IMG/VR virus record: IMGVR_UViG_3300034119_000910
Coordinates: 1 to 28,219 of that record
Length of the DNA: 28,219 bases
From: a virus
Direction: 5' to 3' (one strand)
The notes under the pieces are model-generated. The model was not told the DNA's origin and ran no database searches. It was given only the letters and a program-made list of their open reading frames with translations. Both the position numbers and the translations under genes were made by a program. Numbering within the stretch: position 1 is the stretch's first letter; each line of letters starts with the position of its first letter. This document shows positions 1,476-21,398 of this stretch, piece by piece.

Positions 1476-1679
1476 ATGAAGACCAACACCGATCCAGCCG
1501 CCGCATGGGCGGCACTCGCCCCATTCGCTCCGGAAATGTTCGACGCCTTGCTTGCGCTCACTCACCCGATGGCGGCGGACGATGACCTGCAAGACGCCCT
1601 CGCCCTATTGGCGGAGATCAACGCCGCCCGCAAAGCGGCGAGCGATGCCGCATTCATCGCCGCCGCTTTGCCGCGCTAG
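1476..1679 (+). CDS. Ala-rich hypothetical protein, 67 aa
   Basis: Encodes 67 residues, mostly helical and very Ala-rich (MKTNTDPAAAWAALAPFAPE...), with a short acidic stretch ADDDLQDAL around residues 34-42. The leader consists of repeated AACCCC units directly before ATG. The TAG stop (1677-1679) lies inside palindrome copy 4 and the first bases of the 79-bp duplicated block, so gene end and repeat overlap. No membrane segment or known motif. Function not recognised; its place just upstream of the ATPase promoter block may make it part of an earlier transcript. Confidence 0.6.
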   Translation: MKTNTDPAAAWAALAPFAPEMFDALLALTHPMAADDDLQDALALLAEINAARKAASDAAFIAAALPR

Positions 1680-1754
1680 TGCGGCCCGCACTAAGGAAAA
1701 AAGAATCTTGGAAAATAACATTGACGGCACGCCGCCCGCCTGTAAAGTGGCGGC
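1676..1754 (+). repeat. 79-bp duplicated promoter block, copy A
   Basis: Identical over 79 bp to 2879-2957. It contains a short form of the palindrome (TAGTGCGG-C-CCGCACTA, 1677-1693), an A-rich stretch and a sigma70-like promoter. An inverted repeat GCCGCC (1731-1736) / GGCGGC (1749-1754) brackets the -10 region. The duplication places the same control element before the ATPase gene and the DUF3150-like gene. Confidence 0.95.
1721..1748 (+). promoter_or_regulatory. Sigma70-like promoter for the AAA+ ATPase gene
   Basis: TTGACG (1721-1726), 16-bp spacer, TAAAGT (1743-1748); the ATG follows 45 nt later. The exact second copy before the next gene, and a TTGACA-N17-TAAAGT element before the gene starting at 23126, support it as a real promoter type of this genome. 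The GCCGCC/GGCGGC dyad around the -10 could be an operator. Confidence 0.6.
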
Positions 1755-1793
1755 TCACCCAATCCAATACCAACCCCAACAAATACTGAAATC

Positions 1794-2873
1794 ATGAAAC
1801 TACCACAAATCAAAATCAGCCAAGCCGCTGACATCTGCCGTGTCGCCTTCGCATCGAACCGCTTCTTCGCCATTTACGGCAAAGGCGGAGTCGGCAAAAC
1901 CAGCATCGCCGCCAACACTATCGCGCCCGCTTTGGGCTTCGATGAAGTCGCGGTGGTGAACCTGTCCGGCTCACTCCCACAAGATGCGGTCGGTTATCTG
2001 GTTCCTGTTCTTGAATCCCGCGAGGGTTTCTTCATCGAGCCGGAGCAATGGCCGACCGCAAAGCGGGTCGGTGACCGCAAAGTTCTGCTCGTTCTCGACG
2101 AGTTTCCGGAATGGGACTCTTCGATCCAAAGCCTGTGCCGTTCGCTCTTCAACACCGATGGCGGCCCGCCCAAGATCGGCGTGCATGAGCTTGGCCGGAA
2201 TGTCAAGATCATGATCACCGGAAACCGCCGCTCCGATGGGGCGCGGTCAGCTGTGCCAACCGCACCGCTTGTCAGCCGCTGTGCAAGCTACGCGGTCGAA
2301 CCATCGCTTGATGATTGGCTTGATTGGGCCGCGTCCAACGGACTGGCCGCTTCCCCAATCTTCACCTTCTTGAAATTCCAAGGCGGTGACCAGCACGGCA
2401 TCGATCACTTCTCACCGGACATTCCACAGCCGTGGGACGGCTCGCCGCACCCGACTCCACGCTCATGGGAAGCGGCGTGCCGCGCGATGCTCGACGATCA
2501 GCTCGACGATAGGCTGGCCGCGCTTGTTCTTGAGGGCTTCGTCGGTGAGGCCGCTGGCCGTGCCGCCTATGCCTTCATCAAGCTGGTCGGCGACCTCATG
2601 CCGAAGCTCAACGCGATCCGCTCCGGCGCGGAAGATATGCCCGCCGATCCGGCAAGCCAACAGGCTCTGACCCACGCCGCGCTCCGCATCGCGAAGCGAG
2701 AGACCGCCGCTGATCCGGCGGTGGCTGTTGCAAGCGGTGCGCTTGACTGGCTGGTCGAACGGATCCTTCTGCCCGCTCGCGGAGAGATTCGCGCTTATGG
2801 CTACGCCACCGCGCTCCGCTGTGGCTTGCCACTCGACCAGCACCCACGCCGTCAGCAAATGCAAGGCGTGTGA
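1794..2873 (+). CDS. AAA+ ATPase, MoxR-like, of a MoxR/DUF3150/VWA module
   Basis: Encodes 359 residues. Walker A is GKGGVGKT (29-36), Walker B is LLVLDEF (98-104, with D102 and E103) and the sensor-1 strand IMITGNRR carries N144, followed by a candidate arginine-finger region (SRCASY, about 161-166). This is the P-loop AAA+ core used by MoxR-type ATPases, which remodel partner proteins together with VWA-domain proteins. The C-terminal 190 residues are helical, as in lid domains. The start fits the leader CAACAAATACTGAAATC. It is followed by a DUF3150-like and a VWA/HExxH gene, the usual phage companions, so a chaperone acting on the VWA partner is the likely role; the substrate is unknown. 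Confidence 0.85.
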   Translation: MKLPQIKISQAADICRVAFASNRFFAIYGKGGVGKTSIAANTIAPALGFDEVAVVNLSGSLPQDAVGYLVPVLESREGFFIEPEQWPTAKRVGDRKVLLVLDEFPEWDSSIQSLCRSLFNTDGGPPKIGVHELGRNVKIMITGNRRSDGARSAVPTAPLVSRCASYAVEPSLDDWLDWAASNGLAASPIFTFLKFQGGDQHGIDHFSPDIPQPWDGSPHPTPRSWEAACRAMLDDQLDDRLAALVLEGFVGEAAGRAAYAFIKLVGDLMPKLNAIRSGAEDMPADPASQQALTHAALRIAKRETAADPAVAVASGALDWLVERILLPARGEIRAYGYATALRCGLPLDQHPRRQQMQGV

Positions 2874-2878
2874 CCCCA

Positions 2879-2957
2879 CTAGTGCGGCCCGCACTAAGGA
2901 AAAAAGAATCTTGGAAAATAACATTGACGGCACGCCGCCCGCCTGTAAAGTGGCGGC
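2879..2957 (+). repeat. 79-bp duplicated promoter block, copy B
   Basis: Exact copy of 1676-1754. It starts 5 bp after the ATPase stop and includes the palindrome (TAGTGCGG-C-CCGCACTA, 2880-2896), the promoter and the GCCGCC/GGCGGC dyad around the -10. Divergence begins abruptly at both edges, as expected for a recent duplication or gene conversion. Confidence 0.95.
2924..2951 (+). promoter_or_regulatory. Sigma70-like promoter for the DUF3150-like gene
   Basis: TTGACG (2924-2929), 16-bp spacer, TAAAGT (2946-2951), identical to copy A. The ATG at 2992 follows 40 nt later, through an AACCCC-rich leader ending in GAAATACTGAT. Confidence 0.6.
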
Positions 2958-2991
2958 AACCCCAACCCCAAATTGAAATAGAAATACTGAT

Positions 2992-3870
2992 ATGCAAACC
3001 AACCTCAATCAAATCAATTCGCTGGTTCTCGTAAAACTTTCCAGCACCGCGCCTTCAACCTCCACGCTCCACAAGGGCGCGACCGCCAAGCTGGCGCGTG
3101 ACAATGGCGCATCGAATAAGTCGGCCCGCGTGCGTGCCACTATCATCGAGCGCAAAGGCTCCGCCGTTGGCCGCGCCGCCGCGCTGGTCAACACCACCCA
3201 AGCGGCGATCCGCAAGCACGCTCTGCCCTGCCCTTCAATTGAGGGAGCGTCCTATGTGCAGGCGAAAGATGTGGACGCAGTCCAGCAGATCTTCGATGAC
3301 GCCGTGGCCAAGCTGGTCACGATCCGGCAAGACATCGTGGCGGAGTGGCCGCACCTTGTGGCGGCGGCCCGCAATGATCTTGGCCAGCTCGCATGGGAAG
3401 TCGAGTGGCCGACCGCCGATGAGTTTGCCGATCGGTTTTCGATCAGCCTCACATGGCTTGGCCAGCCCGCGCCGATCGCTGGCACGCTGTTGGAATCGGT
3501 GACAGCCGAAACCGCCGCGCGTGTACGCGCATCGTCGGAGCAGGCTGTGCGCTCTGACCTGCTCGCCGCCCATGGCTATCCGGTGCGCGACCTCATCGCC
3601 AATCTGGCCGAGTCGGTCGAGCAAGTTCGCAACGGCAAGCGGATCCGCCAAGAGCGGTTCGATAATATCCGCGCCGCCGCCGACGACATCGCCGCGAAGA
3701 ACTGGCTGGCCCTGCCCGAACTCGACAAGCTGGTCGCGTCCCTCCGCGAGTCGGTCGAAGATGTGACCGATGCCGCCAGCCTCACCAAGGGCCAGCGTGA
3801 CGCCGCCGCCGATCGCATCGCGGAGGCTCACCGCAAGGCCGAACAGACCCTTGCTGACTTGGGCATCTGA
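2992..3870 (+). CDS. DUF3150-like protein
   Basis: Encodes 292 residues, largely alpha-helical, with no membrane segment, Cys cluster or obvious catalytic motif. It contains EWPHLVAAARNDLG, DEFADRFSISLTWLG and a helical, charged C-terminal third (about 200-292) likely to form coiled coils. Length, helical make-up, the central W/F-rich 'RFSI' region and above all the position between a MoxR-like ATPase and a VWA/HExxH protein fit phage DUF3150 proteins. Molecular function of that family is unknown; an adaptor between the ATPase and the VWA protein is inference. It has its own copy of the duplicated promoter block, so it may also be made independently of the ATPase. Confidence 0.65.
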   Translation: MQTNLNQINSLVLVKLSSTAPSTSTLHKGATAKLARDNGASNKSARVRATIIERKGSAVGRAAALVNTTQAAIRKHALPCPSIEGASYVQAKDVDAVQQIFDDAVAKLVTIRQDIVAEWPHLVAAARNDLGQLAWEVEWPTADEFADRFSISLTWLGQPAPIAGTLLESVTAETAARVRASSEQAVRSDLLAAHGYPVRDLIANLAESVEQVRNGKRIRQERFDNIRAAADDIAAKNWLALPELDKLVASLRESVEDVTDAASLTKGQRDAAADRIAEAHRKAEQTLADLGI

Positions 3871-3876
3871 TATCCA

Positions 3877-3920
3877 ATGGGGTGTCGAACTTAATAAAAG
3901 AAAATAGTTTGACACCCCAT
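3877..3920. repeat. 15-bp-stem inverted repeat before the VWA gene
   Basis: Arms ATGGGGTGTCGAACT (3877-3891) and AGTTTGACACCCCAT (3906-3920) pair over 15 bp with one G-T wobble, around a 14-nt A/T loop. It begins 7 bp after the preceding stop. No T-run follows, so it is a weak terminator candidate; the right arm contains a perfect -35 (TTGACA), so an operator overlapping the next promoter is at least as likely. Confidence 0.85.
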
Positions 3921-3937
3921 CCCGAACCCTGTAACTT
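3909..3937 (+). promoter_or_regulatory. Possible promoter for the VWA/metallopeptidase gene
   Basis: Perfect -35 TTGACA (3909-3914), 17-bp spacer and a poor -10 TAACTT (3932-3937), 13 nt before the ATG at 3951. The -35 lies in the right arm of the inverted repeat, suggesting control by a dyad-binding protein or by structure. Confidence 0.4.
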
Positions 3938-3950
3938 GAACACGTAACCA

Positions 3951-5378
3951 ATGAAGACTGACCACACACCCACCCTCTCCGCCGCGATGCGCCGCGTCTC
4001 CCAGCATTGGCCGCTCGCCTACGGCAAGTTGCTTGCCCTCCGTTGGGAGGCGACCGATGCCACTTCCTACGGCGCGACCGATGGCCGCCGCCTCCTGCTC
4101 AATCCGGCTGGCCTTGCCAAGCTCGACAAGACAAGCGATCCGGTTGGCCTCACCGCCTTCCTTCTGGTACATGAAGCGTTGCACGCGCTCTTGAACCACG
4201 CGCTCCGGCTCCGCCTCTTGGCCGATGCCAAGACCGCGAACATCGCCGCCGACTATGTGATCAACGCGCTGATCAAGGCGCGTAACACCGAAGTCAACAC
4301 GGCACACGGCTTCGTGCCTTTCCCCTTCATCGAAGGCATCCTGTTCGACGAGTCGGTGTCCGCCGACTTCAGCGCGGAAGAAGTCTATCAGCGGATCATG
4401 AAGCCGGACGGCAAGCAAGATGGGCCGGAGCCACAGACAGCCCCACAGCCACAGCCACAGCCACAGCCACAAGACGATGGCGCGGACGACGATGCCGATG
4501 GTGATGCCGATGGTGATGGCGATGGTGATGGCGCGGACGATAGTCCCGATGCCGATGACAGCGGATCCGGTGACGGCGATGCCGATGCCGATGCCGATGG
4601 CGAAGCGGACGGCGAAGCTGGCGGCAAGCAATCTGACCGCGACATCCTTGGCGGGGATTGGGTTGGCGGTGGCGGCGATGATCTGGCCGAGCCGGAAGCC
4701 GGAGCTGGCGAATCGATCGACGATATCGAACGCGAGATCGAAGCAGATAACGAACGCCAAATCTTGGAGGACGCGATCAACGCACGCGCCGGAATCGGTG
4801 GCGGCGGTCAGAACCGCACGATCGACAAGCTCCGCCACAAGGGAACCGGAACCGACTGGGCCGCGTACCTCCGCCAGTTCCTCACCAGCTCCAACCGCAA
4901 CGGATGGGAAGCACCGCTGAACGCTCCGGTGTTCCTCTCGACTGGCGTGATCGCGGCTGGCCGCCAACGCCGTGCGCTCAACAGCGTGGCGGTGGTGATC
5001 GACACCAGCATCAGCGTGCCGCAGTCCCTGCTGGTCGAGATGCTTGGCGAAGTCCAACACGCGCTCGACGAAGGGCAAGTGACCAGCGTCCACCTCATCG
5101 CGTGCGACTGGCGCGTGCAACAGGCCGACGAATACTTTGCCGGAGATGTGATCCCCCCGACACTCAAGGGTGGCGGCGGCACAGCGTTCCAGCCAGCCTT
5201 CGACTGGATCGAAACCTACGCGCCAGAGGTGGACGGCATCGTGTACCTCACCGATGGCGAGGCGTACGATTGGGACAGCGTGCGCCAGCCGCAAGCTCCG
5301 GTTCTCTGGCTCGACTACGGCACAGACATTGCCAAGCCATACACCTTCGGTGAGGTGGTATCATTCACCCACCGCTAA
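3951..5378 (+). CDS. DUF2201-like metallopeptidase/VWA protein
   Basis: Encodes 475 residues. The N-terminal 120 residues match the DUF2201-type putative metallopeptidase region, with HEALH at 74-78 (zinc-binding HExxH) inside LLVHEALHALLNHALRL. Residues about 160-230 form a low-complexity linker of Pro-Gln repeats then Asp/Gly/Ala repeats. The C-terminal domain is VWA-like with a MIDAS: D351-T-S-I-S355, T411 in KGGGGTAF and D435 in YLTDGEAYD. Such proteins pair with MoxR-type ATPases, as here. The likely role is a metal-dependent protease or scaffold activated by the ATPase; no substrate is evident. A long antisense open frame across it is a codon-bias shadow. Confidence 0.85.
   Translation: MKTDHTPTLSAAMRRVSQHWPLAYGKLLALRWEATDATSYGATDGRRLLLNPAGLAKLDKTSDPVGLTAFLLVHEALHALLNHALRLRLLADAKTANIAADYVINALIKARNTEVNTAHGFVPFPFIEGILFDESVSADFSAEEVYQRIMKPDGKQDGPEPQTAPQPQPQPQPQDDGADDDADGDADGDGDGDGADDSPDADDSGSGDGDADADADGEADGEAGGKQSDRDILGGDWVGGGGDDLAEPEAGAGESIDDIEREIEADNERQILEDAINARAGIGGGGQNRTIDKLRHKGTGTDWAAYLRQFLTSSNRNGWEAPLNAPVFLSTGVIAAGRQRRALNSVAVVIDTSISVPQSLLVEMLGEVQHALDEGQVTSVHLIACDWRVQQADEYFAGDVIPPTLKGGGGTAFQPAFDWIETYAPEVDGIVYLTDGEAYDWDSVRQPQAPVLWLDYGTDIAKPYTFGEVVSFTHR
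4443..4620 (+). repeat. Coding microsatellites in the VWA-gene linker
   Basis: A CCACAG hexamer is repeated in tandem at about 4443-4472 (Pro-Gln), followed by degenerate GATGCC/GATGGT/GATGGC units to about 4620 (Asp-Ala/Asp-Gly). The repeats stay in frame and encode the linker between the peptidase-like and VWA domains. Length changes by slippage would alter linker length without breaking the frame where whole hexamers change. Confidence 0.8.
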
Positions 5379-8358: not shown

Positions 8359-8379
8359 ATGAAGACTGAAACAATATGA
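8359..8379 (+). other. Six-codon mini-frame overlapping the DnaA-like start
   Basis: The frame reads MKTETI then TGA, and the TGA overlaps the ATG of the next gene (ATGA at 8376-8379). Its context AACCAATGAAGACTGA is the same as at the VWA gene start (3947-3962), so ribosomes probably initiate here. It may be a coupling leader peptide or the remnant of a replaced gene. Confidence 0.4.
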
Positions 8380-8747
8380 AAGCACACCACCCCATAATCA
8401 AGTCGGCATCGAAGGCATCGCGCCTACCATGCGTTGAGATATTAACCAGCAGGAAAAAGGAACCCACCGCGTGGCGACAGGTCGCCATGTACGCGATGCG
8501 GGATTCCGGTATGACCTATGCAGAGATTGCCGCCGTCGTTAAGCGCGACACAAGCACGACCCATAGCACGTGTGCCAAGCTGTCGAAGCTGGCAAACCAA
8601 AACTGGTTTGTTGAAATGCTAAATAAGATTGGCTTTGTCGCGATAGAAGTAAAGGCCCAGCAAGATTGCCGTGCCGCTGTTGATCGTATCTGTCAAGCCA
8701 TCCCGCCGCGCCTCTACATGGACGCGTTCGGGATGGCCGACGATTGA
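8376..8747 (+). CDS. Stand-alone DnaA domain IV-like DNA-binding protein
   Basis: Encodes 123 residues. Residues about 26-66 (TSRKKEPTAWRQVAMYAMRD, then SGMTYAEIAAVVKRDTSTTH and STCAKLSKL) align by eye with the C-terminal helix-turn-helix of DnaA, whose pattern is R-Q-[IV]-A-M-Y-L-x-R, then S-L-x-x-I-G, then R-D-H-T-T-V-x-H. Here the RD-x-[ST]-T spacing is kept, but the DNA-contacting His after RD is Thr and the later VxH is THS. There is no AAA+ domain, so it cannot act as a full initiator. It could compete for or redirect DnaA-box binding, or bind a phage site. About 55 C-terminal residues are unrecognised and helical. It is the last plus-strand gene before the convergent giant gene, two bases away. 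Confidence 0.7.
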   Translation: MKAHHPIIKSASKASRLPCVEILTSRKKEPTAWRQVAMYAMRDSGMTYAEIAAVVKRDTSTTHSTCAKLSKLANQNWFVEMLNKIGFVAIEVKAQQDCRAAVDRICQAIPPRLYMDAFGMADD

Positions 8748-8749
8748 TC

Positions 8750-11700
8750 TTACGGCTCAAGCATGATGTATCGTGGCGTGCCTTGGAGGACTTCAAGTGC
8801 GGCCTTGAGACGCTCCGCTCCCTGCTCGTTCTCTGGATCCGAAAGGCGTTTGATAAACTCTGGATTGAGAACCGGACGATCCATGATCTTGTTGAACAGC
8901 AGTCGGGTGCGGTCTTTGCCGTAGCCCATTCCGGTTGTGATCTGATAGAGCTGTTGCGGTGACAGGCCGAGACCCTCGAAGCCGCGCAGTTTCTTGTAGA
9001 TATCTTCGTTGATCTTCGCTTTGTCTTCGATCTCCGATTGGATAATCTCTTTGACGCTGTCAGTTTCCATCGCCTTCTTGCCGAACAAAGCGTTCTTCCG
9101 CTCGCTGACCCGATTGAATACATCGCGTGTGTCTGCCAGATAGTTGCGGAGTTGCTTGTCGAGTTCGATGTCGTGGCGTTTAACAGGATAGAACTCCCTC
9201 ATCAAGATGCCAGCCGGACTATCGTCGAACTCTGTGTAGTCCGCGCCGACCGCTTGATAAGACTCGATCGCACGCTTCATTACCGAAGGCTGGTACGCTT
9301 CCTTGAGCAGGAACCCTAACGACTTCAGCAACACGATGCCAGCGTTGTCCAGCTTCTCCTCATAGATCGGCTTCTTGGTCGACGGGTTCTCGTTATCACG
9401 GAGGCTTTGAACGGCGGACGATAGGATCTGATCGTCCAAGTACTGGTCGAAGATTGCTGTCTCAACAAACTTCGCCGCCGCCTTTGCCGGATTGCCTCTG
9501 AACAATTGCTCCATCGAACGCATGGTCGGGTCGGCCAAGATCGAGAACGGGTTGAGGAATGTGAAGTCCCACGATTGGAGTTGACCATCGGCCTTGCGGC
9601 GGTAGAAGAAGGTGTGGTTCCTCAAGTACTCTGGAACGGATGAGCGGAGTGCTTCGTCTTCGTCTTCTCCGATTCCGGCGACCGCGCTGGCGATAGCTGG
9701 AACGATGGCCGAGACGCCCGAAAGCATCGCCGTCATTCCAGCAAAGCGCGTGATGCCGCGTTGTTTCAAGACCGGATTGCTAGACTTCATCTCCGCTATC
9801 GCCGTCTTGTAGGTGTTGAGAACGATGCGGGGAACCTCAACCTTGAACCGGAGGAACGGAGCGAACAGCAGTCCGATACCGGACTTGGTAACTTCTTGCA
9901 CAAGAGGCGGTGCTTGTGACGATGACTGCGCGGTAGCCAGTACTTTGTCCGCAGCCATCCGCTCAAGCTGTGAGTCGGAGGCCGAAGCCAATGTTCCGGT
10001 ATCAACGGAGCGGGCTTCCTTCAAGACGCGAAGTTCATTCTCATAGTAAGCGATCTTGTAGAATGCATCGACCGATCCGGACAAAACTTGAGCGCGTTGT
10101 GACAGCCATTGCAGGGGCTTTGTCCCCTTCTTCGCTGTGTCGATAAGCTCTCCGAGTTTGGTTTCGATATCGTCCACGCCATCGCCACCGCGAAGCATAG
10201 CCGCCATGATATTGGTATTGATATCATCACCGATAACTCCGAGTGATATCAGCTTGGTGCGGTAGGAATCGATCTTTGTCGGATCGACGATCGCGTTGCT
10301 CCAAACTTCATCGTAAGCCTTTGTCGCCATCGACTTGAAGTTCACGAAGCCTTGGGCCGGAGCGAAGAAGAGGGCGTTCGATACAACGTTGCGGACATAG
10401 AATCCAATCGAGCCGAGAGTCTTCGCCGCCATCGCCGCGCCGGACAGGCGGGCGGCAACACCGATCGTCTTGCCGACTACCTCTTGCGCGGCGGTCTGGT
10501 TGAACCGGATCCCGTCTGGAGAGAACACCTTACGGAAAGCGTCAACCATTTCCGGCGGGCCGTAGAGTTCGCCAAGTGGGTCATAGCTTGATGTCGTTTC
10601 TCTGATTGACTTGTACTTACCGAATGTATCGTAGTCCTTCTTCTTGCCGTCAGCGAGTTCGGTAGCGGTGATGAGCCATCCTCCGGCACGACCGATGTCA
10701 CGGACATTGTTGAGGAACGATTGATTCGCCGCCATCGAACCAGTAGTGATGAGGGAACGGATCAGGTTATCGACTCCGGTTTCGGCTCCCTTCTCTCCGA
10801 GGAGATCGCGGATCTCTTTCGGAATGTCGCGCTTCAGTTGGACATTGTCGAGCAACGGCTTGAGCTGGCGGCTCATGTTGGTCGCAGAGATCGCCTTGCC
10901 AGTCTTGTCGTAGCTGTTGATAAACTCTTCCATCATGAGCTGGCCATATGTCCTGCCGCCCATCGTCTTGAGTCCAAGCTCACGCTTCGCTTCAGCTTCG
11001 GCTTGCGCTCGCGGAACTCCGTTCGCTCCAGAGATACGGCGGCGAACTTCGCTGTCGATGAATTGCTTCTCGAAGAAGTTAATCGCGGCGTCACGAACAT
11101 CTTCGTAGTATGGATCGTTGAGAACCTTCTCGCCGAATCCGATCTCATCAAACATCTTGTATGTTCTGGTGAGATAGATTCCGAGCTGGTTGTCGAACTT
11201 CGCTTTGAGTTCTGGCGGGAATCCGTACAGGCTCGCTACCTTCTTCGACATCTCGTCGGTTAAGGTACGGAGCTGGACGATATGCTTAACAAGATCTGGC
11301 GATTGAGTGGCGAGCTGGCCAAGTGCGTCGTCCCGTCTGGTGCGGATCGAGTTGGCCAATGTCTTCTCTGCATCGAGAATTGTCTTGTCCCGATTCATCA
11401 TGGCGATGCCGCGTGCTATCCTCTTGTCCTCTGCGGTCAGCGTGTCGTCGGTATCGATGACATCGAGATCGTAGTTGAAGTCATCTTCGATCTGTGTGAG
11501 TACATCTTCCGGAAGAGCGAGTCCCTTTGTCGAACCAGTTGCGTCTTGGATAAGATCGACTGGAGCGTTCTCGATACCACCGAAGTCCCTCTTGATGATC
11601 GCGTCGAGCTTGGTCTTGTATCGTTGGGCGAGATCAAAGGTAGCCTTGTTGAAGAAGTCGCGTTGGTTTTTAAGGCGCAGGATTCGGGGATCGAGTTCGC

Positions 11701-14700
11701 CCTTCAGCAACTTGTCGAGCATTCCCTTTGGCGATTGGTAAGTACCGACCTCCATCATCGGCATCTCAAGCGACTCAAGGAAGTTGCTGTAGTCGATGGT
11801 GTCGGCATCGAATCCAACTGGTAGTTGTGAAGCCGCGCCGAATTGGGTAGCGAGTGTTCGGCTTTGTGTTAAGTCTTGGAATTGTTTTTTGGCTTCTGCC
11901 TGCTCTTCCGGCAGTAACGCCGTATCGTATTGCCAATCGTAATTTATTGCAATTTGATTGTTACCATTCTTGAAGACGCGGACTCCTTCATCTCCAGTAA
12001 TTCCACTGAGATAATTGTTTAGTGCGGATATCGTGGAGATCTCTTTTCTGTCTCCGTCAACAATTACCAAGAATTTCTTACCGTAAACTTTGCCATCTAC
12101 TTTAGAAGCCTTATCCTGCACAGAAGAAATTAGTTTAGACAAGTCATTAGCACGGTTGCCGTCTGCATCATAAATAGAATTTATCTTATGAATCTCGATC
12201 GGAGTTCCGTATTTCCTTGGGATTGAGATGACTTGACTTGCTACGCTTTCGCCGCCAGCTCCAAACTGAGTGGCAAGTGGGAATGATGTGTCAGCTTTCG
12301 CGGCTCTTGCTTTGGCTACCTTTTCTTTCGCGGCGGTCTGCATCGCCATCGCCGCGTCGTAGTCATCGGTAAGCGGGATCGAATCGCGGATGGCCGCGTA
12401 CCCCTCTGCATCAATCTCTGGCAATCCGCTATCGCCGTCGAGATCCTTGACCATAAGAACGACGTCCGGCTCTCCGGCGAGTTCATAGGGCCATCCGTCT
12501 GGAGCATAGTCTCTGCTGAACGATACCCTTGCCGCTGGTCTGAATCCATAATTGGCATAAAGGTCTGGCAGGAACCCATTGATATCAAAGGCATCGAGCG
12601 TTACCGCGTATGGTGCGGCTTCGGCCAAGATATCTTTGATTTTCGCTTTGCTGGTCGGGTGTTTGAACACGCTGACCAGATCTCCATAAGAAGTTACGGA
12701 GACTCCGGAGAGTCCGTCTTCGGTGAGGAAGAGTCGGTTGTTGGGGTCGTTGTAGTATTCTGCTGGCTTAACTTCCACTGCCGCGCCCATGGGGTGTTCG
12801 GACGCTGTTCGGCTAATTCCCTCAACAAATCTTCGTCCTGCATCAGGGTCAGTGCTGAGGCTGCGTTCGTATATGCTTGGCGTAAGTCTTTCATATCCTG
12901 TTGGTGTTAGTTGTGATCCTATTTGGCTTGCCCTTGCTTCTTTGAAAGCCTCATGAGTTTGTCTAAAAACCTCCCCATTTGATCTGGCGTCATTCCGCTG
13001 GATACTTCGTGAGGCTCGATCGGCTCTGATGTTTTCGGCAAGCTGTCTTGCTTCTTCACCGAGCCCTCTTTCTGTTGCGATGTTGATGAATTCGTCGTCA
13101 TATGATTGTTTTAGATTGCTTTCTTCTTTACCCGATAGTTTCGCCCAGAGATCTTTTTCTGGATACCAAAGCACCGCTTGGATATCTGCGTTTGTAGTGA
13201 CATATCCAAGTGCTTCAAGCTCGACGCGCATCGCATTGACAATTTCTGTGATGACGCGCCTGTCTTGATCAGATGGGATATCAATCGGATTGAGTTCTGA
13301 TTTAATGACATCAGCCGCTTTTGCCCATTCTGGTTTGAGATTGGAGATGTCAGTATTCGAGAAGGACTCAATCCGGTTGGCATTCTTATAGCCGTCGTAA
13401 CGCCAATCGGCAATCTTTATGTTGAATTTCTTGCCATCTTTTTTCGCAGCGGCTTTTGCTTTCTCGAATTGTTTAGTGAGATCGTCATCAAATTGTTTAA
13501 TGTCTTTGATGATTTCTTCTATACCGATCTTTCCGGAGCGGTAGTCTACCATCAATTCTTTAGTGACCTTACCATATTTTATTTTCGTCGTTGCTCCGTT
13601 CTCTACTTTAGAGAATGTGCCATCTTTCAAAAGAGCGTATTGTTTCTGCCATGCAGAGTAGAGATCTTTTGCCAATTGGTTGAATTGATTTCTGTAATCT
13701 AAATCTTTCTCAAGTCGTTTAACCACAGCATCGGACACAGACTGATAGGCGGCCCCCTGTTTCCCCGTTGAGAGCGTATTATAGCGAGTTACGACTTTGA
13801 TTTGGCGAGCGAATGCTGGAAGAGATACGCCAGCATCCCTCGCGCCAATGAGCAGATTAGCCAATCGAGCATCGGTAACTCCATCACCAACTACATCTCC
13901 AGTCCAACGGCCCCAAGTCCTTCGCATCCAAAGATCGATCGTAACGGGATCGAAATTAGACATTAGGTTTTGAAGGAATCCTTGACCGATCTTCGGCCCG
14001 AAGATTGCCGCTCCGTTGACTTTGTCATCTTTCCTTCCAGAGATGGACACATCTTTACCACGGATCTCACTAGCCGCTTCCTCAAGTCCTTTGACGGTGA
14101 ACTCAGAACGTACGAAGTTTTCGGCTTCTTTATATCCGTATTTAGTTACAAGAATATTAGCCAGTTCAAGGTTGCTCTTAATGGCTAATGCTTTGGTTCC
14201 GTAATCTATTGTTGAATCAAATCGTCCGGTTTGTTTTAGAATATTAAATTGTTCTTCAGCATACTTAGTATTCTGTTTAACATTGATATTCTGTGATGTG
14301 ATAGCCAATGCCATACGCATTGCAAACTGAGCCGCTTGAACTGGATCTTCAGAAGCCGCAAAAGCTGGAACCTTTCTGGCAGCTTCGATGTCAGATAGTT
14401 CTGGATGAATCAATCCTGCTACTTCCATAGCCACTTCGATAGCCGTTGAATACCAGTCAGCAGCATTCTTACCACTGGCGTTGAGAGCAGCAATGAATTC
14501 CTGTACTCCGTTAAGAATGATCTCTTGTTTTTCTGCTTCGGTGATATTGCTACTAGTAATAACGCGACCCCAATATTTCTCTGCGGCTCCCGCTAATTCG
14601 TTTGCGACTTTAGCATTTGTGATTTTCTTGTCGGGCTTCGGAAGTTCTTTGCTATCGTTATGGAGAACACGAACAGCAGACATCGGCATAAGCTCGCGGA

Positions 14701-17700
14701 GTTCTGTTGGCTCTGCCCCAATTTTGGATCCAAGTTGAGTAGCAATCTGCGCCATCGTTGCGTGCGGGTTACGCGCATCAAACTCCAGCGTGTTCGGAGT
14801 GAGGCGATAGCCAGCGTTGATGGCGCGTACTTCGGTGATCATCCGCTGAAGCGTTGCGCGTTGCGTACCGTTCATGGTAGCGACAGACTTACCAGCCATG
14901 TAGCGGTTAATGAATCCCTTCATGTAGCGGCCAATGATCTTGAGTAGCGAAGGCTTGCTACGGAAGAACATATAGTCCTCTTCGGTAGTAAATCCGCGTG
15001 TCACTTTCTGTGAGTGCATCCGTAGCAATTCTTCAGCCATGCCTTCGCGCTCGCGTGCGGCGGTGGTCGGATCTTCAGAACGGATCCGTGCTTTGGCGGC
15101 GACCTTCAACTCGTCTGTCTGGTAGTACCTATCGATGACATCGTCGAAGTCAGACTCCTTCAATGTAGCGACATAGTTATCAAGCTCCTGCTGTGTGAGC
15201 GCGTTGTAGGAGGCGGCGTGCGCGGCTTCCTCTGTCATGATGCCTTCGACTATTCCCCTAGCGGAGACATCGTCGAGACCAGCTACGACACCGGACATCG
15301 CGTTCGGATTGAGCAGGATCTTGCCGCCTTGGAAAGCGGCGGCGTATGGCAAATCGGTTCTGATTTCAAGTTCAAATTCCGCAGGAACCATTCGGCGAAC
15401 CATGCGGATCATGTCCTTGACTTTTGCTAATGTTTCGGCAGTCGTGCTATTTACGGACGAAGCAATGTCTTGTTCCGTAATTCCTTGCACGATCGATTCG
15501 GTCTCCTGTTCAGCAACGATGTCGGCTTCGACCGCTGTCGTTTCAACTTCAGCCGCAACTTGAGTCGGGCGAATTGTATCATTGATCGCTTTAGCCGCTT
15601 CGGAAACCTGTTGCAGGGTTCGGGATGCGGGGCCAGCGATACGGTTGATCAGACCAGCCGGAGTCATCGGAGCGCGGAGAACGGCTTCTTTAGTAAGGTC
15701 AACGATATCGGTAAACGCTTTCTGGTAGTCCGATTGCTTCGACCTTCCGAGACCAAACATATCAAGCACGGCATCAACCATGCGGGCAAAGAAGCCACGC
15801 TGTTTCGCCGGAGGCAACAGGGCTTTCAAGAATCCTTGGAAATCTGTGCTGGTAAAGAAATGTGTAACGAACTCATTAACATTCTCAAGCCCGTCGGTCA
15901 GAGTCGGATCTGTGATTCCGTTGTCCGCAGCAGAACGGCGAGCCAGCTCAAGAATACCGTTGATCCGTTGAAGCGATCCGCGTTGGGCAGCGTTGAGGTT
16001 CTCGTTCGGGCTGGCAACGGAGATGCTAACAAATGCGTGGGTGTACTCATGGAGGAGTACATCAACAAGACCGCGTCCGTTGTGTCCGTCCAAGTTGACA
16101 GAGATCATCGGCGATCCATTGGACGCCTTCATGTAAGCACCAGCATATTGGAGCGGCGACTCATCCAGAGTGAACTCGACCTGTCTGATGTATCCTTGAT
16201 TCTCCAAGAGGAGTTTGGCGAGCAGACGCTTGTTCGCGTCCGGTTCGGAAGAGGCGATTGTTTTAAGTGCTTTAATGACGGACTCCGGATCGTTGGTCTT
16301 CAGTCCAAGGCGGGCTACCTCTGCATCGTTCTGTTGGCGTGCGTAAGCGATTTGTTCTCCGCGAACATAGGAGCGAGACCAGAGTGGTTGAATAGCGTTA
16401 CCAATTGATTTGAGATAGTCGGAAGCCTCTTGTCTAGAGACGGAGCGACCGAACGAACTCTCCAAGTTCTCGCGAATGGATTCGACATAGGCGACATCCT
16501 TTGTTGGATCGCCTTCGATAGTCTTGGAACTCAAGTACATCATCTTCATCACTCGACGCATCCTGTCCCCGCTTACATAAACACCGTCACGAAGATCGCG
16601 CTGGAATTTAATTGCATCCGGATTGGTGTTATAGTTTCCGGAAGACATCCAAGATGCGAGCATCCCGAACGCGTCGGTCGAACTAAGTTTGGTGATGTCG
16701 ATTGCGCTGTTGCCTTTGAACACAGTCCGGCGAAGCAGTCTGTCAATCTGGGAACGCATCTCTGGATCGGAGTCCAGAGCATCGGCGGCGTCGAACGTGG
16801 CTTCTTTCAGAGCCTTTCCAATCAAACTCGAATCCGGAGCCTCGAACGGTGTGGTAGGAGCAATGAATGTATTGTCCGCCGCTTCGGCCTCTGGATCGAA
16901 GAGTTCGGTATCGTCTTGGATCTGCGCCAGATCGGTCGGATCGGTGGTCTCGAACAATGCTTTCCGAGAAAAGATATCGCGGCTACGTTGTTGTTCAGCA
17001 AATGCGTTACCAACTTTAGCACCGATCTCGCGGAAGGTTGGCATAAAGGGAGGGCGGACAAGCACCTCATTCTCGATAAACTTTTGCAGTACTAGATCTG
17101 GCTCAGTCTCTGGATCAATGTCCGAACCAAATATACCAGCAATATTTCGAGCCGCTATGTCTTTATCGACTTTGGTTCGTGAAACCAAGTCGTCGATAGC
17201 GGCTGCGATTTTGTCTGTCTTGAGTGTTGGTGTCGCTTCTCCGGACTTGCGTTCCGAGAATTTATCCATTCCAAGACGGAGTTCGTGGATGATGGCTTCT
17301 TTGCGTACCGACATATTAAATGCTGGCACAGCAGCTTCAAAGAACTCTGTTTCAAGTGTCCCCTTTCTTGGCTTCACGATAACGCGAAGAGTAGCGCGGG
17401 CTTTCTCTGGATCTCCATAGGCACTATTCGGCCTGCCACTAGAAGCAGCGGCAGCAAGTTGATCTGCGTCTTGAATAATTTCGTCGAGAGTAACTTCGCT
17501 GGACCGGCGAAGAACTTCGCCGGACACACCTCTTGGGTTGGTAACAAAACGGCTAGTAATCTCTGGCTTGAACAGCGCAGTAAAGGATGACAAGTTTGCG
17601 TAGTACTTATAGTTTGGCTCGCTAGAAATAACTTGATCTTCTTTGGTAAGAACGGACACGAATCCGGTTCCGGTTTCCGGATTAGTCATCACGATGTCGT

Positions 17701-20700
17701 TCAAGAAGCGGACTCCTCCGGATGTATATGTGCGGAAAGATGGGTTGAGAACCGAAACAAAACTGTCTGGAATGACAACCGGAATTCGGCGGTCTAGAAG
17801 CAGCTTCATGGAGACGGGATCGTTGTTGAAGATACCCACTCCGCTTTTATCAATAGAAGCCTTCGGTGTTCTGCGAACAACCGATTTGACTTTGGGGTCA
17901 TAGAACGAAACTTTTTCTTTGCTAACAATAGTCTCCGCTTCGACTGCGTTTTTATCAACACGAACTGGATACAGCTCGCTAATTTTTCTAGCGACCATGT
18001 CCGACTTTCCAACAAGATATCCTTTTGGATAAGTCCCACGTTGGGGCATCCCATGAAGAGCCTTCCGCTCCAACCGGACTGGATATCCGAGTGTGGCGAT
18101 CCTTGTTAGAGAGGCAACTTCTTGGCCGATCATCTCGTCATCGATGAACTCGTCTGGAGAAAACATCGGTTCCTTCGCCCCAATAGCTGCGCCGAGGATA
18201 GGGGGTTGGGCAGTAGCTTGAGCAGGAATATTCTTTGTAGCTTTCTTGCCCTTCGTTGTTGGGGCTTTTGTCTGTTGCGACTCAATCGCCCCGAAGAGTT
18301 CAATCAACATCCGGTTGCGCTCTTCAGTTGGGAGTTGCTCTGCTGCGAGTTCGGCGTTCAGGTCGGCCTTATCTTGATCTGTCAGATCCTCATCTGAATA
18401 GTTTGCGTTGATGTGGTTGTTCTGTTCGTCAACCGAAGCGGAATCAAAATCAAGTCCAAGCTGCTCTGCGAGTTTTGCCTTCTTAATACTTTTAGTGGAA
18501 GATGCCGTGCGCGTCTTCTTTACCTTCGGCTTCTCTGGACTTGAAGTGTCGAGTCCAAGATCAAGTTGGTCTTGGGGTTTCTTGTCTTGCTTCGATGTGT
18601 AATCGAACTCTAATTGCTGCGCCACCGGACTGGTAGGGCCAGCGGGCTTGCGTACTGTACGGCCTCTTTTGGCGACTTCGGTTGTCGGGATATCTTCCAC
18701 AAAGGCAAACTGCGACTGGCCGCGCTCATCAACAATTGTTTTAGCAACGGTATCGGGAGACGTCGAATTGTTAAGAGCCTCCGTAATCTGCTCTGCTGTT
18801 GGGGTTTGTGTATCTTCGACTTCGGTATCTACTTCAGTCGCTACTTCATCGGCAATAGCTGGCTGGCGAGACTGGTCAAGAATTGCTTGAGCGATTGGAG
18901 CACGTGCGCGGCGTGGGGCGGTGAGGATACTGTAGACAGTCTGTGCTGTGATAGGGCTACCGCTTTGGGTGAGCTTGTCACTTACTCCTCTAGCGAACTC
19001 TGTCTCGACTCCGATCTGTACTCCGACGGAGTCACGCTGAATAACGGCGTTCTTTACCGCTTTAATGGCGGGAACGCCGCCGCCGATAATGCCGCCGATT
19101 AGGGCAGCGCGGCCAGCCTGTTCGAGTTTTTCAAGGAATGGAGTGTCCTCATCTGTAGCGGCGTCTGTGATGAAACCATTAACAAATTGATCGAGACCTT
19201 CTTCAGCCCCTTCATCAACGGAGTTCTTAAAGATTTCTTTTCCAACTCCTCCGGCAACATTTAAAGTTCCATACTTTTTAAGGGTTTCAGAAACCTGTTT
19301 GGAAATAACTTTATTGAAAACATCATCTGGAATGTCATCGACATTGGAAAGACGAGCGACTACGTTCTTGATTTGTTTACGGGAGGCTCCGCTGAGAAGA
19401 GCGTCTTCAAGACCGCCACGTCCGAATGCTCCGAACGCTCCAGTTATGAGAGCGGTAGTTGCGCCCGCAGCGAGTCCGGCTCCAAGTGCGCGATCGTGTC
19501 TCTCTTCCGGAGTAAGGTCTTTGTTGTTTTCGAGTGTCGCATAGACCGAAGCATATGTAGATCCGGCAGAGCGGTTGAATGCCGGAACGGCTGTAGCGGC
19601 TGTGACGCCAATAGTCTTGGCGAGTTCGCTGTTGAATCCTTTGATCGCGGCTTGTGCTCCACTGATTCCGGCTTCGGTTGTGGACGCTTTGACGAGTCCT
19701 TGGGTAACGAGTCTTTCAGCTGCGCCTTCGGCGGTCTCTGTCGGCAACTGGCGCAAAGCACTAGATGTCATCCCTTTGAGTAGCCCCTTTGCAGTGAGTC
19801 GTGCGCCTTGTTTCGCGGCGAGGAAGACAGCACCGCCAGCACCAGCAGCTGGTGCGGTAGCGGCTGCGAGTAATCCAGTTGCGGCAACGTCGGCCAACAT
19901 CGGAGCAAGTGATTCAGCGACATCTTGTACAATACCATATTCTTTACCAAACAAGTTAGCGACTTCACGGCGATTGCTGCGCTCTTTGATGTTGCCTACC
20001 ATGTAGTCGCGAGCCCAATCTGCGCCCATCATCATCGGAACTGCGGCGACCATTTCGCCGAGACCATCAACAATTGATTGAGCGACACCAGCTGTGCGGT
20101 CTTTGATCTCGCTAAAGTTATTAGGATCGCTGAGGTATTCTTTTACGATTTGTGTATCTTTTTTTCCGCCAACGCGTCCGGCTTGTAGGGTGTTTAGCCA
20201 GTCATCGGATAGAGATGATTCGCTCAACGTCTTATTGATTTGATTGAACGACGCTTGAAGATAGGGATCGCGTTGTGCTGTAATAATTTTCTTTTGATCT
20301 TCAGAAAGATTTGCGTTAGCTGTGACTGACTTATCGAATAAGTCGTCATTTGCCATCACGGCTGGATGAACAAAAGGAGTCGAATATCCAGCGGTGCGAA
20401 TATTCTTTGACGCATCTTTTGGGTCGTCATAAAGTTTGAACTTACCATTTTGGTTGGCATTATAGTAAGCAACTTGAGTAAGTGCTTTTGAGATTTCCTC
20501 ATTAGAGAAAGCATCATCTTCTGGGATAAGCCCGCTCTTATTTACTTGAAAGCGGATGTTACTAACCATGTCATCAAAAGACTTTGCGGGTCTTCCGTCT
20601 TTATCAGCCGCTGCGAGTTCATCAGAATAACGATTGATAATATCGGCAACAAATTTATCGTTCTCTGCAAACTTCTCAATTGTGGCTGCTGCTTCGTTAT

Positions 20701-21373
20701 AGCGATCAACTTTAAACAACGGTTCGTTATAGCCAATTGGAACAGACATTTTGGATTGCACCTTCGCCGCGTCAGCAAAAGTCACCCCGCCCTTTTTACT
20801 AGCCTTAATCGCTTCAGCCAAGTTCATGCTTCCAAGATTCGGAGAAGCAATGATTTCTTCCTCGCCGTTATCGTTTGTGAACTTCGCCAGTGGTATCTCG
20901 CCGCTACGAACTGCGGACTTCAGAGCCTTCCGGTATCCGGTATCCGCGACTGCTAGTGCATCCGTCAAATATTGTTCACCCTTCAAACGGATATCCTCCG
21001 GAACTTCCGCCCCTTCGGGATTGAGCTTTTTGAACGTAAGATATTTAGTTGCCGCGCCCCAAGTTGGATCCGACGAATCGAGATTGGACTGGATCAATTC
21101 GAGCTTAGTATCCAATTTCGTCTCCTCTGGAGTAAAGATCGAATTGATCTGCTCTTGATTTAGGCCATCTTGTTTTGCGCCAAGCAACGTAGAGTTGCTA
21201 ATTTCGCTTTCGATCCGATCATTATACGCGCCAGCAGTGGCGTATTCTCCACGCACATATTCCGCATAATTTTTGCGGTCTTTAATTTGATCTCCGGAAT
21301 CGTTATCCTTTTTCCAATCGTTGAATGGGAGGAAGTCGGGATCTTGTTTTAGTAGTTCATCAAGCTCTGACAT
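8750..21373 (-). CDS. Giant polyvalent/ejection-type virion protein, about 4,207 aa
   Basis: One frame of about 12.6 kb. The ATG at 21373 is used; a GTG at 21382 would add three residues, and positions here count from that GTG. Visible elements: Ala/Gly-rich membrane-like segments near 495-530, 632-650 and 760-778; charged linkers near 790-1000; a zincin motif HEYTH at 1778-1782; a second peptidase-like motif EEAAH at 2051-2055 lacking the first His; a region with DLWMRRTWGRWTG near 2485; a GNAT-like segment near 2890-2980 (LYANYGFRPAARV); and a C-terminal region from about 3650 (FYVRNVVSNALFFAPAQG, then a hydrophobic segment near 3883-3905) resembling LPD38-type polyvalent proteins. Such proteins travel in the virion and enter the host with the DNA. 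Several domains are unassigned. Base composition changes along the gene, suggesting a mosaic. Confidence 0.85.
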   Translation of the reverse strand: MSELDELLKQDPDFLPFNDWKKDNDSGDQIKDRKNYAEYVRGEYATAGAYNDRIESEISNSTLLGAKQDGLNQEQINSIFTPEETKLDTKLELIQSNLDSSDPTWGAATKYLTFKKLNPEGAEVPEDIRLKGEQYLTDALAVADTGYRKALKSAVRSGEIPLAKFTNDNGEEEIIASPNLGSMNLAEAIKASKKGGVTFADAAKVQSKMSVPIGYNEPLFKVDRYNEAAATIEKFAENDKFVADIINRYSDELAAADKDGRPAKSFDDMVSNIRFQVNKSGLIPEDDAFSNEEISKALTQVAYYNANQNGKFKLYDDPKDASKNIRTAGYSTPFVHPAVMANDDLFDKSVTANANLSEDQKKIITAQRDPYLQASFNQINKTLSESSLSDDWLNTLQAGRVGGKKDTQIVKEYLSDPNNFSEIKDRTAGVAQSIVDGLGEMVAAVPMMMGADWARDYMVGNIKERSNRREVANLFGKEYGIVQDVAESLAPMLADVAATGLLAAATAPAAGAGGAVFLAAKQGARLTAKGLLKGMTSSALRQLPTETAEGAAERLVTQGLVKASTTEAGISGAQAAIKGFNSELAKTIGVTAATAVPAFNRSAGSTYASVYATLENNKDLTPEERHDRALGAGLAAGATTALITGAFGAFGRGGLEDALLSGASRKQIKNVVARLSNVDDIPDDVFNKVISKQVSETLKKYGTLNVAGGVGKEIFKNSVDEGAEEGLDQFVNGFITDAATDEDTPFLEKLEQAGRAALIGGIIGGGVPAIKAVKNAVIQRDSVGVQIGVETEFARGVSDKLTQSGSPITAQTVYSILTAPRRARAPIAQAILDQSRQPAIADEVATEVDTEVEDTQTPTAEQITEALNNSTSPDTVAKTIVDERGQSQFAFVEDIPTTEVAKRGRTVRKPAGPTSPVAQQLEFDYTSKQDKKPQDQLDLGLDTSSPEKPKVKKTRTASSTKSIKKAKLAEQLGLDFDSASVDEQNNHINANYSDEDLTDQDKADLNAELAAEQLPTEERNRMLIELFGAIESQQTKAPTTKGKKATKNIPAQATAQPPILGAAIGAKEPMFSPDEFIDDEMIGQEVASLTRIATLGYPVRLERKALHGMPQRGTYPKGYLVGKSDMVARKISELYPVRVDKNAVEAETIVSKEKVSFYDPKVKSVVRRTPKASIDKSGVGIFNNDPVSMKLLLDRRIPVVIPDSFVSVLNPSFRTYTSGGVRFLNDIVMTNPETGTGFVSVLTKEDQVISSEPNYKYYANLSSFTALFKPEITSRFVTNPRGVSGEVLRRSSEVTLDEIIQDADQLAAAASSGRPNSAYGDPEKARATLRVIVKPRKGTLETEFFEAAVPAFNMSVRKEAIIHELRLGMDKFSERKSGEATPTLKTDKIAAAIDDLVSRTKVDKDIAARNIAGIFGSDIDPETEPDLVLQKFIENEVLVRPPFMPTFREIGAKVGNAFAEQQRSRDIFSRKALFETTDPTDLAQIQDDTELFDPEAEAADNTFIAPTTPFEAPDSSLIGKALKEATFDAADALDSDPEMRSQIDRLLRRTVFKGNSAIDITKLSSTDAFGMLASWMSSGNYNTNPDAIKFQRDLRDGVYVSGDRMRRVMKMMYLSSKTIEGDPTKDVAYVESIRENLESSFGRSVSRQEASDYLKSIGNAIQPLWSRSYVRGEQIAYARQQNDAEVARLGLKTNDPESVIKALKTIASSEPDANKRLLAKLLLENQGYIRQVEFTLDESPLQYAGAYMKASNGSPMISVNLDGHNGRGLVDVLLHEYTHAFVSISVASPNENLNAAQRGSLQRINGILELARRSAADNGITDPTLTDGLENVNEFVTHFFTSTDFQGFLKALLPPAKQRGFFARMVDAVLDMFGLGRSKQSDYQKAFTDIVDLTKEAVLRAPMTPAGLINRIAGPASRTLQQVSEAAKAINDTIRPTQVAAEVETTAVEADIVAEQETESIVQGITEQDIASSVNSTTAETLAKVKDMIRMVRRMVPAEFELEIRTDLPYAAAFQGGKILLNPNAMSGVVAGLDDVSARGIVEGIMTEEAAHAASYNALTQQELDNYVATLKESDFDDVIDRYYQTDELKVAAKARIRSEDPTTAAREREGMAEELLRMHSQKVTRGFTTEEDYMFFRSKPSLLKIIGRYMKGFINRYMAGKSVATMNGTQRATLQRMITEVRAINAGYRLTPNTLEFDARNPHATMAQIATQLGSKIGAEPTELRELMPMSAVRVLHNDSKELPKPDKKITNAKVANELAGAAEKYWGRVITSSNITEAEKQEIILNGVQEFIAALNASGKNAADWYSTAIEVAMEVAGLIHPELSDIEAARKVPAFAASEDPVQAAQFAMRMALAITSQNINVKQNTKYAEEQFNILKQTGRFDSTIDYGTKALAIKSNLELANILVTKYGYKEAENFVRSEFTVKGLEEAASEIRGKDVSISGRKDDKVNGAAIFGPKIGQGFLQNLMSNFDPVTIDLWMRRTWGRWTGDVVGDGVTDARLANLLIGARDAGVSLPAFARQIKVVTRYNTLSTGKQGAAYQSVSDAVVKRLEKDLDYRNQFNQLAKDLYSAWQKQYALLKDGTFSKVENGATTKIKYGKVTKELMVDYRSGKIGIEEIIKDIKQFDDDLTKQFEKAKAAAKKDGKKFNIKIADWRYDGYKNANRIESFSNTDISNLKPEWAKAADVIKSELNPIDIPSDQDRRVITEIVNAMRVELEALGYVTTNADIQAVLWYPEKDLWAKLSGKEESNLKQSYDDEFINIATERGLGEEARQLAENIRADRASRSIQRNDARSNGEVFRQTHEAFKEARASQIGSQLTPTGYERLTPSIYERSLSTDPDAGRRFVEGISRTASEHPMGAAVEVKPAEYYNDPNNRLFLTEDGLSGVSVTSYGDLVSVFKHPTSKAKIKDILAEAAPYAVTLDAFDINGFLPDLYANYGFRPAARVSFSRDYAPDGWPYELAGEPDVVLMVKDLDGDSGLPEIDAEGYAAIRDSIPLTDDYDAAMAMQTAAKEKVAKARAAKADTSFPLATQFGAGGESVASQVISIPRKYGTPIEIHKINSIYDADGNRANDLSKLISSVQDKASKVDGKVYGKKFLVIVDGDRKEISTISALNNYLSGITGDEGVRVFKNGNNQIAINYDWQYDTALLPEEQAEAKKQFQDLTQSRTLATQFGAASQLPVGFDADTIDYSNFLESLEMPMMEVGTYQSPKGMLDKLLKGELDPRILRLKNQRDFFNKATFDLAQRYKTKLDAIIKRDFGGIENAPVDLIQDATGSTKGLALPEDVLTQIEDDFNYDLDVIDTDDTLTAEDKRIARGIAMMNRDKTILDAEKTLANSIRTRRDDALGQLATQSPDLVKHIVQLRTLTDEMSKKVASLYGFPPELKAKFDNQLGIYLTRTYKMFDEIGFGEKVLNDPYYEDVRDAAINFFEKQFIDSEVRRRISGANGVPRAQAEAEAKRELGLKTMGGRTYGQLMMEEFINSYDKTGKAISATNMSRQLKPLLDNVQLKRDIPKEIRDLLGEKGAETGVDNLIRSLITTGSMAANQSFLNNVRDIGRAGGWLITATELADGKKKDYDTFGKYKSIRETTSSYDPLGELYGPPEMVDAFRKVFSPDGIRFNQTAAQEVVGKTIGVAARLSGAAMAAKTLGSIGFYVRNVVSNALFFAPAQGFVNFKSMATKAYDEVWSNAIVDPTKIDSYRTKLISLGVIGDDINTNIMAAMLRGGDGVDDIETKLGELIDTAKKGTKPLQWLSQRAQVLSGSVDAFYKIAYYENELRVLKEARSVDTGTLASASDSQLERMAADKVLATAQSSSQAPPLVQEVTKSGIGLLFAPFLRFKVEVPRIVLNTYKTAIAEMKSSNPVLKQRGITRFAGMTAMLSGVSAIVPAIASAVAGIGEDEDEALRSSVPEYLRNHTFFYRRKADGQLQSWDFTFLNPFSILADPTMRSMEQLFRGNPAKAAAKFVETAIFDQYLDDQILSSAVQSLRDNENPSTKKPIYEEKLDNAGIVLLKSLGFLLKEAYQPSVMKRAIESYQAVGADYTEFDDSPAGILMREFYPVKRHDIELDKQLRNYLADTRDVFNRVSERKNALFGKKAMETDSVKEIIQSEIEDKAKINEDIYKKLRGFEGLGLSPQQLYQITTGMGYGKDRTRLLFNKIMDRPVLNPEFIKRLSDPENEQGAERLKAALEVLQGTPRYIMLEP

Positions 21374-21398
21374 AGCAGACACTGGTTATTAGTTGTTG

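Follow-up and report, generated by a model that had tools for sequence, protein, structure and literature searches.

Two pairings of a MoxR-type ATPase with a VWA protein are already known from phages. Phage N4 encodes an ATPase/DUF2201 pair, gp24/gp25, counted among the Schitoviridae core genes where its members are listed as 'Unknown' and 'vWFA domain' (PMC4193335, PMC2784036, PMC7650795), and present among the middle transcripts (PMC4193335). The group 2.2 jumbo phages have a MoxR AAA+ protein together with a vWA protein bearing an N-terminal metallopeptidase, for which Iyer et al. in 2021 proposed a role in virion assembly (PMC7824862). From a mechanistic perspective NorQ/NorD is also pertinent, being a MoxR hexamer with a MIDAS VWA partner, though with two components and a function in cofactor insertion, and with no peptidase domain mentioned in the portion of the source drawn on here (PMC9976466).

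The window considered here is a complete IMG/VR virus record of 28,219 bp, in which three consecutive genes, spaced 118 and 80 nt apart, occupy 1794-5378 of the + strand. The first (1794..2873, +) encodes a 359-aa MoxR/midasin-class AAA+ ATPase, the second (2992..3870, +) a 292-aa DUF3150-related protein, here called the middle protein, and the third (3951..5378, +) a 475-aa DUF2201 metallopeptidase-VWA protein. A preliminary description had reported this run on one strand, and its coordinates, like the positions that it gave for four motifs, proved correct. Selection on each of the three genes is purifying, with dN/dS of 0.05-0.31 from a simple Nei-Gojobori count, and a 467-aa ORF opposite the third (3891-5294, -) is judged to be a shadow ORF. 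Also in the window are a terminase gene, a 4210-aa ORF, a RuvC-like resolvase gene and a helicase gene truncated at the record end. The component families are known ones. For the phage group itself no close relative turned up among isolated phages: tblastn of the terminase against isolated phages, and of the middle protein against 50,697 phage records, gave no match, and the isolated-phage matches of the ATPase, in N4-like phages and other groups, are every one below 60% identity.

A 95-bp repeat containing a palindrome is intergenic upstream of the ATPase gene (1671..1765, +), with a second copy, 94% identical, upstream of the middle gene (2874..2968, +). The palindrome, CCCACTAGTGCGGCCCGCACTAGTGGG, occurs at 142, 919, 1420, 1672 and 2875 (142-2906 overall), some copies being imperfect; five copies in the first 2.9 kb compare with zero expected by chance. 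It is retained before the ATPase gene and between the ATPase and middle genes in three related contigs (G001, G002 and G003), and the RNA fold of one copy is unremarkable (z -0.64). Tandem repeats of 14 and 46 nt are present near the record start, at 79-333.

Walker A (GKGGVGKT, 29-36), Walker B (LLVLDEF, 98-104) and sensor-1 (N144) are all present in the ATPase, and Walker A, D102, N144, R162 and R223 are invariant in 57/57 aligned proteins. The window protein itself falls below Pfam cut-offs, its relatives pass that for AAA_5, and it matches PHROG_1297 ('ATPase') at E 3.8e-37. With a profile of 40 relatives, midasin AAA modules are the best match (E 2.8e-30), far above ClpB-type ATPases, and CobS is reached at E 7e-6. 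These features, together with its MoxR/dynein-related homology, place the protein in the MoxR/midasin class, in agreement with the earlier MoxR-type designation. It is homologous to the N4 gp24-type ATPases.

The third protein is above the Pfam cut-offs for both DUF2201_N (E 1.6e-16) and DUF2201 (E 2.4e-16), which with the conserved residues bears out the earlier suggestion of an HExxH motif joined to a MIDAS-type VWA domain. Its zincin-like DUF2201_N domain has the HExxH (HEALH) at 74-78 plus H83, R86, N97, D101 and N105. In 62 DUF2201 proteins, drawn from the window clade, plasmids, the N4-like phage YH6, phage G, Thermus phage phiFa and cyanophage S-TIM5, the residues H74, E75, H78, H83, R86, N97, D101 and N105 (HExxH-x4-H, R, N, D, N) are 100% conserved, and the MIDAS residues D351, S353, S355 (DTSIS, 351-355), T411 and D435 (DxSxS...T...D) 98-100%. 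Such conservation makes an active metallopeptidase likely. Between the two domains is a variable acidic/PQ-rich linker at about residues 160-226; repeats at window 4429-4629 encode its PQ-rich and then D/G-rich part, whose length differs among relatives. An AlphaFold2 model (mean pLDDT 76.7) matches VWA domains in a fold search, with the NorQD complex (9qhe) among the weaker matches. The protein also matches PHROG_1314, labelled 'HNH endonuclease', a label present on several phage records as well; that identity is rejected on the Pfam result and the active-site residues.

The relationship of the middle protein to DUF3150 is less direct. It has no match to Pfam DUF3150 (PF11348), and the best phage-contig family member tested reaches 24.1 bits against a cut-off of 24.9, so direct membership is rejected and the protein is classed as DUF3150-related. 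However, the window clade aligns with homologues from Burkholderiales, Rhodovastum and Simplicispira plasmids (A3 versus A4) at 96% by hhalign (E 2.7e-9, 217 columns), and the whole middle family aligns with DUF3150 proteins, intermediates left out, at 94%, whereas three control comparisons with unrelated families gave <1%. Members in two MAGs (2 of the 69 bacterial loci found) pass the Pfam DUF3150 cut-off. Since the window clade by itself against DUF3150 gives 0.6%, which is not significant, the link is transitive, and via these family profiles the protein appears to be a distant DUF3150 relative. The earlier 'DUF3150-like' label therefore holds as a remote family link and not as a Pfam match. 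A search for 'DUF3150' in the literature covered found no paper.

Five IMG/VR contigs carry relatives of the middle protein at identities of at least 58%; a plasmid-type profile finds 179 IMG/VR relatives and the 69 bacterial loci, a window-clade profile has no match in bacterial genomes, and a profile from 45 middle proteins is too diverse for a collection scan. With three other family members as queries, the only cultured phages found were Synechococcus phage MinM2 (OQ594354), whose record itself names the middle gene DUF3150, and two Planktothrix phage records of equal length. The gene order in these, ATPase, DUF3150, VWA-like, is that of the window, but in MinM2, a cyanophage not closely related to the window, small ORFs separate the genes. 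In the 45 middle proteins only P140, P159 and N237 are invariant, with no invariant residue of catalytic type, which suggests a structural role. An AlphaFold2 model (mean pLDDT 79, pTM 0.51) consists mostly of long helices and has no fold match in the PDB at E<=0.001. At loci L190-L202, in Planctomycetota and other bacteria, a middle homologue occurs with no ATPase or DUF2201 gene detected in the fetched DNA, two of these loci being near RadC-like genes.

Where flanking sequence is adequate (for viral loci at least 2.5 kb each side), all three genes are on one strand in 55/55 viral loci, 54 of them in the order ATPase, middle, VWA, and in 43 of 50 bacterial loci; in the 7 exceptions partner genes are not detectable within the fetched DNA. 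The middle protein is thus a fixed third component in the window's group. Profile matches and co-occurrence of the trio in other phages uphold the view of a recurrent module, and its description as a phage module is right in that it recurs in many uncultured phages but too narrow, the same trio being present on plasmids and in bacterial genomes. A different arrangement is seen in N4-like, jumbo and cyanophage pairs, where a search of about 6-8 kb around the ATPase and VWA genes detected no middle gene (YH6, phage G, S-TIM5, phiFa, phiTE, a Rhizobium phage and Pantoea phage G19), so that the third part is dispensable in some such systems. In YH6 the genes like gp24/gp25 are homologous to the window's ATPase and VWA genes with active sites conserved as in the window, and are consecutive and close to DNA polymerase; the window has the middle gene added. 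The likeness of the group 2.2 jumbo system, described as a pair, to the window's ATPase and VWA proteins is by description only.

Plasmid versions fall into more than one type. On pBMC401, a Robbsia plasmid and two Rhodovastum plasmids, the trio has the window's gene order and a homologous middle protein, the difference being that it is plasmid-borne rather than phage-borne; some trio-bearing plasmids are conjugative. On a Simplicispira plasmid the genes are scattered across some 7 kb and are preceded by RecT, SSB and toprim genes. An IncC plasmid has ssb, bet and exo followed by DUF3150 and CobT-like VWA genes, with an AAA_5/CbbQ_C ATPase gene upstream. As in the window there are an AAA_5 ATPase, DUF3150 and a protein with HExxH plus DxSxS, but the ATPase gene is apart from DUF3150 and the VWA protein is CobT-like, with weak similarity to DUF2201 (hhalign 53%). 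This parallel DUF3150 version beside ssb/bet/exo is found in genomes also (RecT and exonuclease being identified by eye from sequence), and DUF3150 relatives are on 1,168 plasmid records. Homologues of the IncC/DUF3150 genes were presumably among those deleted in a study of SXT. There, loss of bet, exo, s067, s068 or s070 cut transfer at most 10-fold (PMC2791158).

The setting of the module bears on its target, for which the preliminary description had thought a host or a virion protein plausible. With loci oriented so that the module is on the + strand, DNA polymerase is + in 18/18, terminase - in 9/9 and a giant virion-type protein - in 7/7, counts that lack independence, the contigs being related. 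In the longer contigs G001 (59.7 kb) and G004 (57.4 kb), the genes of the latter assigned by matching sequence starts to those of the former, the polymerase, exonuclease, helicase and RuvC-type genes are all on the strand of the module, and terminase is opposite. The module is beside DNA-replication genes and not coat-protein genes, which makes the virus particle an improbable target; from the same arrangement we infer that it acts early. The 4210-aa ORF (8750-21382, -) has counterparts of about 4,260 aa in G001 and about 4,410 aa in G004, and a homologue (L043) is matched over part of its length by a PHROG labelled 'virion structural protein'. An N4-type virion RNA polymerase was considered for it; Pfam, PHROG and the PDB gave nothing informative, and the homologue matches the virion PHROG. 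Adjacent to it, a 123-aa ORF (8376-8744, +) has a sub-cut-off resemblance to the DnaA C-terminal helix-turn-helix (E 8e-7, 29.4 versus 31.5 bits).

The most serious alternative would be a chaperone-peptidase of virion assembly or maturation, of the kind proposed for the group 2.2 jumbo pair with archaeal virus ATV as the analogy. In addition to that published proposal, the encoding of virion proteins near gp24/gp25 homologues in roseophage RPP1 (PMC4193335) favours it and counts against a non-virion target. However, because of the polymerase-strand location opposite terminase and giant virion-protein genes, and the presence of the same trio on plasmids, the proposal is disfavoured here and seems unlikely, and with it the virion half of the earlier suggestion.

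The preferred reading, to which a probability of about 55% is attached, is that the three genes encode one ATP-driven remodelling, probably proteolytic, machine that acts early on a non-virion protein of the host or of replication or recombination. The ATPase would form a MoxR-type hexamer as docking site for the third protein's VWA domain, and that domain would grip the client via its MIDAS metal, as NorD does for NorQ. The client would be pulled on or unfolded at the expense of ATP and cut by the attached zincin domain. The middle protein may be a dedicated, mostly helical accessory subunit, either client adaptor or scaffold. Working early alongside the DNA-replication genes, such a complex would have a host or replication/recombination protein as its target, and it is proposed that the trio is kept on plasmids for that reason. 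MoxR/VWA pairs elsewhere work without proteolysis, which counts against the proteolytic aspect.

A related possibility, overlapping this reading but with a different target, is a host-takeover or counter-defence protease or unfoldase for inactivating a defence or regulatory protein of the host. Its carriers, phages and plasmids of which some are conjugative, face common host barriers, and MoxR-vWA ternary systems are known in conflict systems (PMC7159879), but PADLOC gave just weak matches of the ATPases to its anti-phage defence models and none of the neighbouring genes inspected was recognisable as a known anti-defence gene, leaving it quite improbable. A metal-chelatase or cofactor-insertion pair of the CobS/CobT or NorQ/NorD type, to which the similarity of the ATPase profile to CobS and the matches of the IncC counterparts to CbbQ_C and CobT might point, is very improbable given the complete zincin site kept in 62/62 DUF2201 proteins and the mobile-element context.

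What is new, beside the pairs already described, is that a single trio spans phages and plasmids, together with what the gene orientations show. A bolder reading, less likely than not, is that the trio forms a three-part device, common to phages and plasmids, by which a replication, recombination or host-defence protein is proteolysed or unfolded in a regulated way as the element establishes itself; this would be a hitherto uncharacterised type of AAA+ protease. The literature cited gives no function for the N4-like core pair, nor is one known for the widespread plasmid family DUF3150, and the trio links both under one hypothesis. Conserved as it is, and on the replication strand, it points away from the published proposal of virion assembly.
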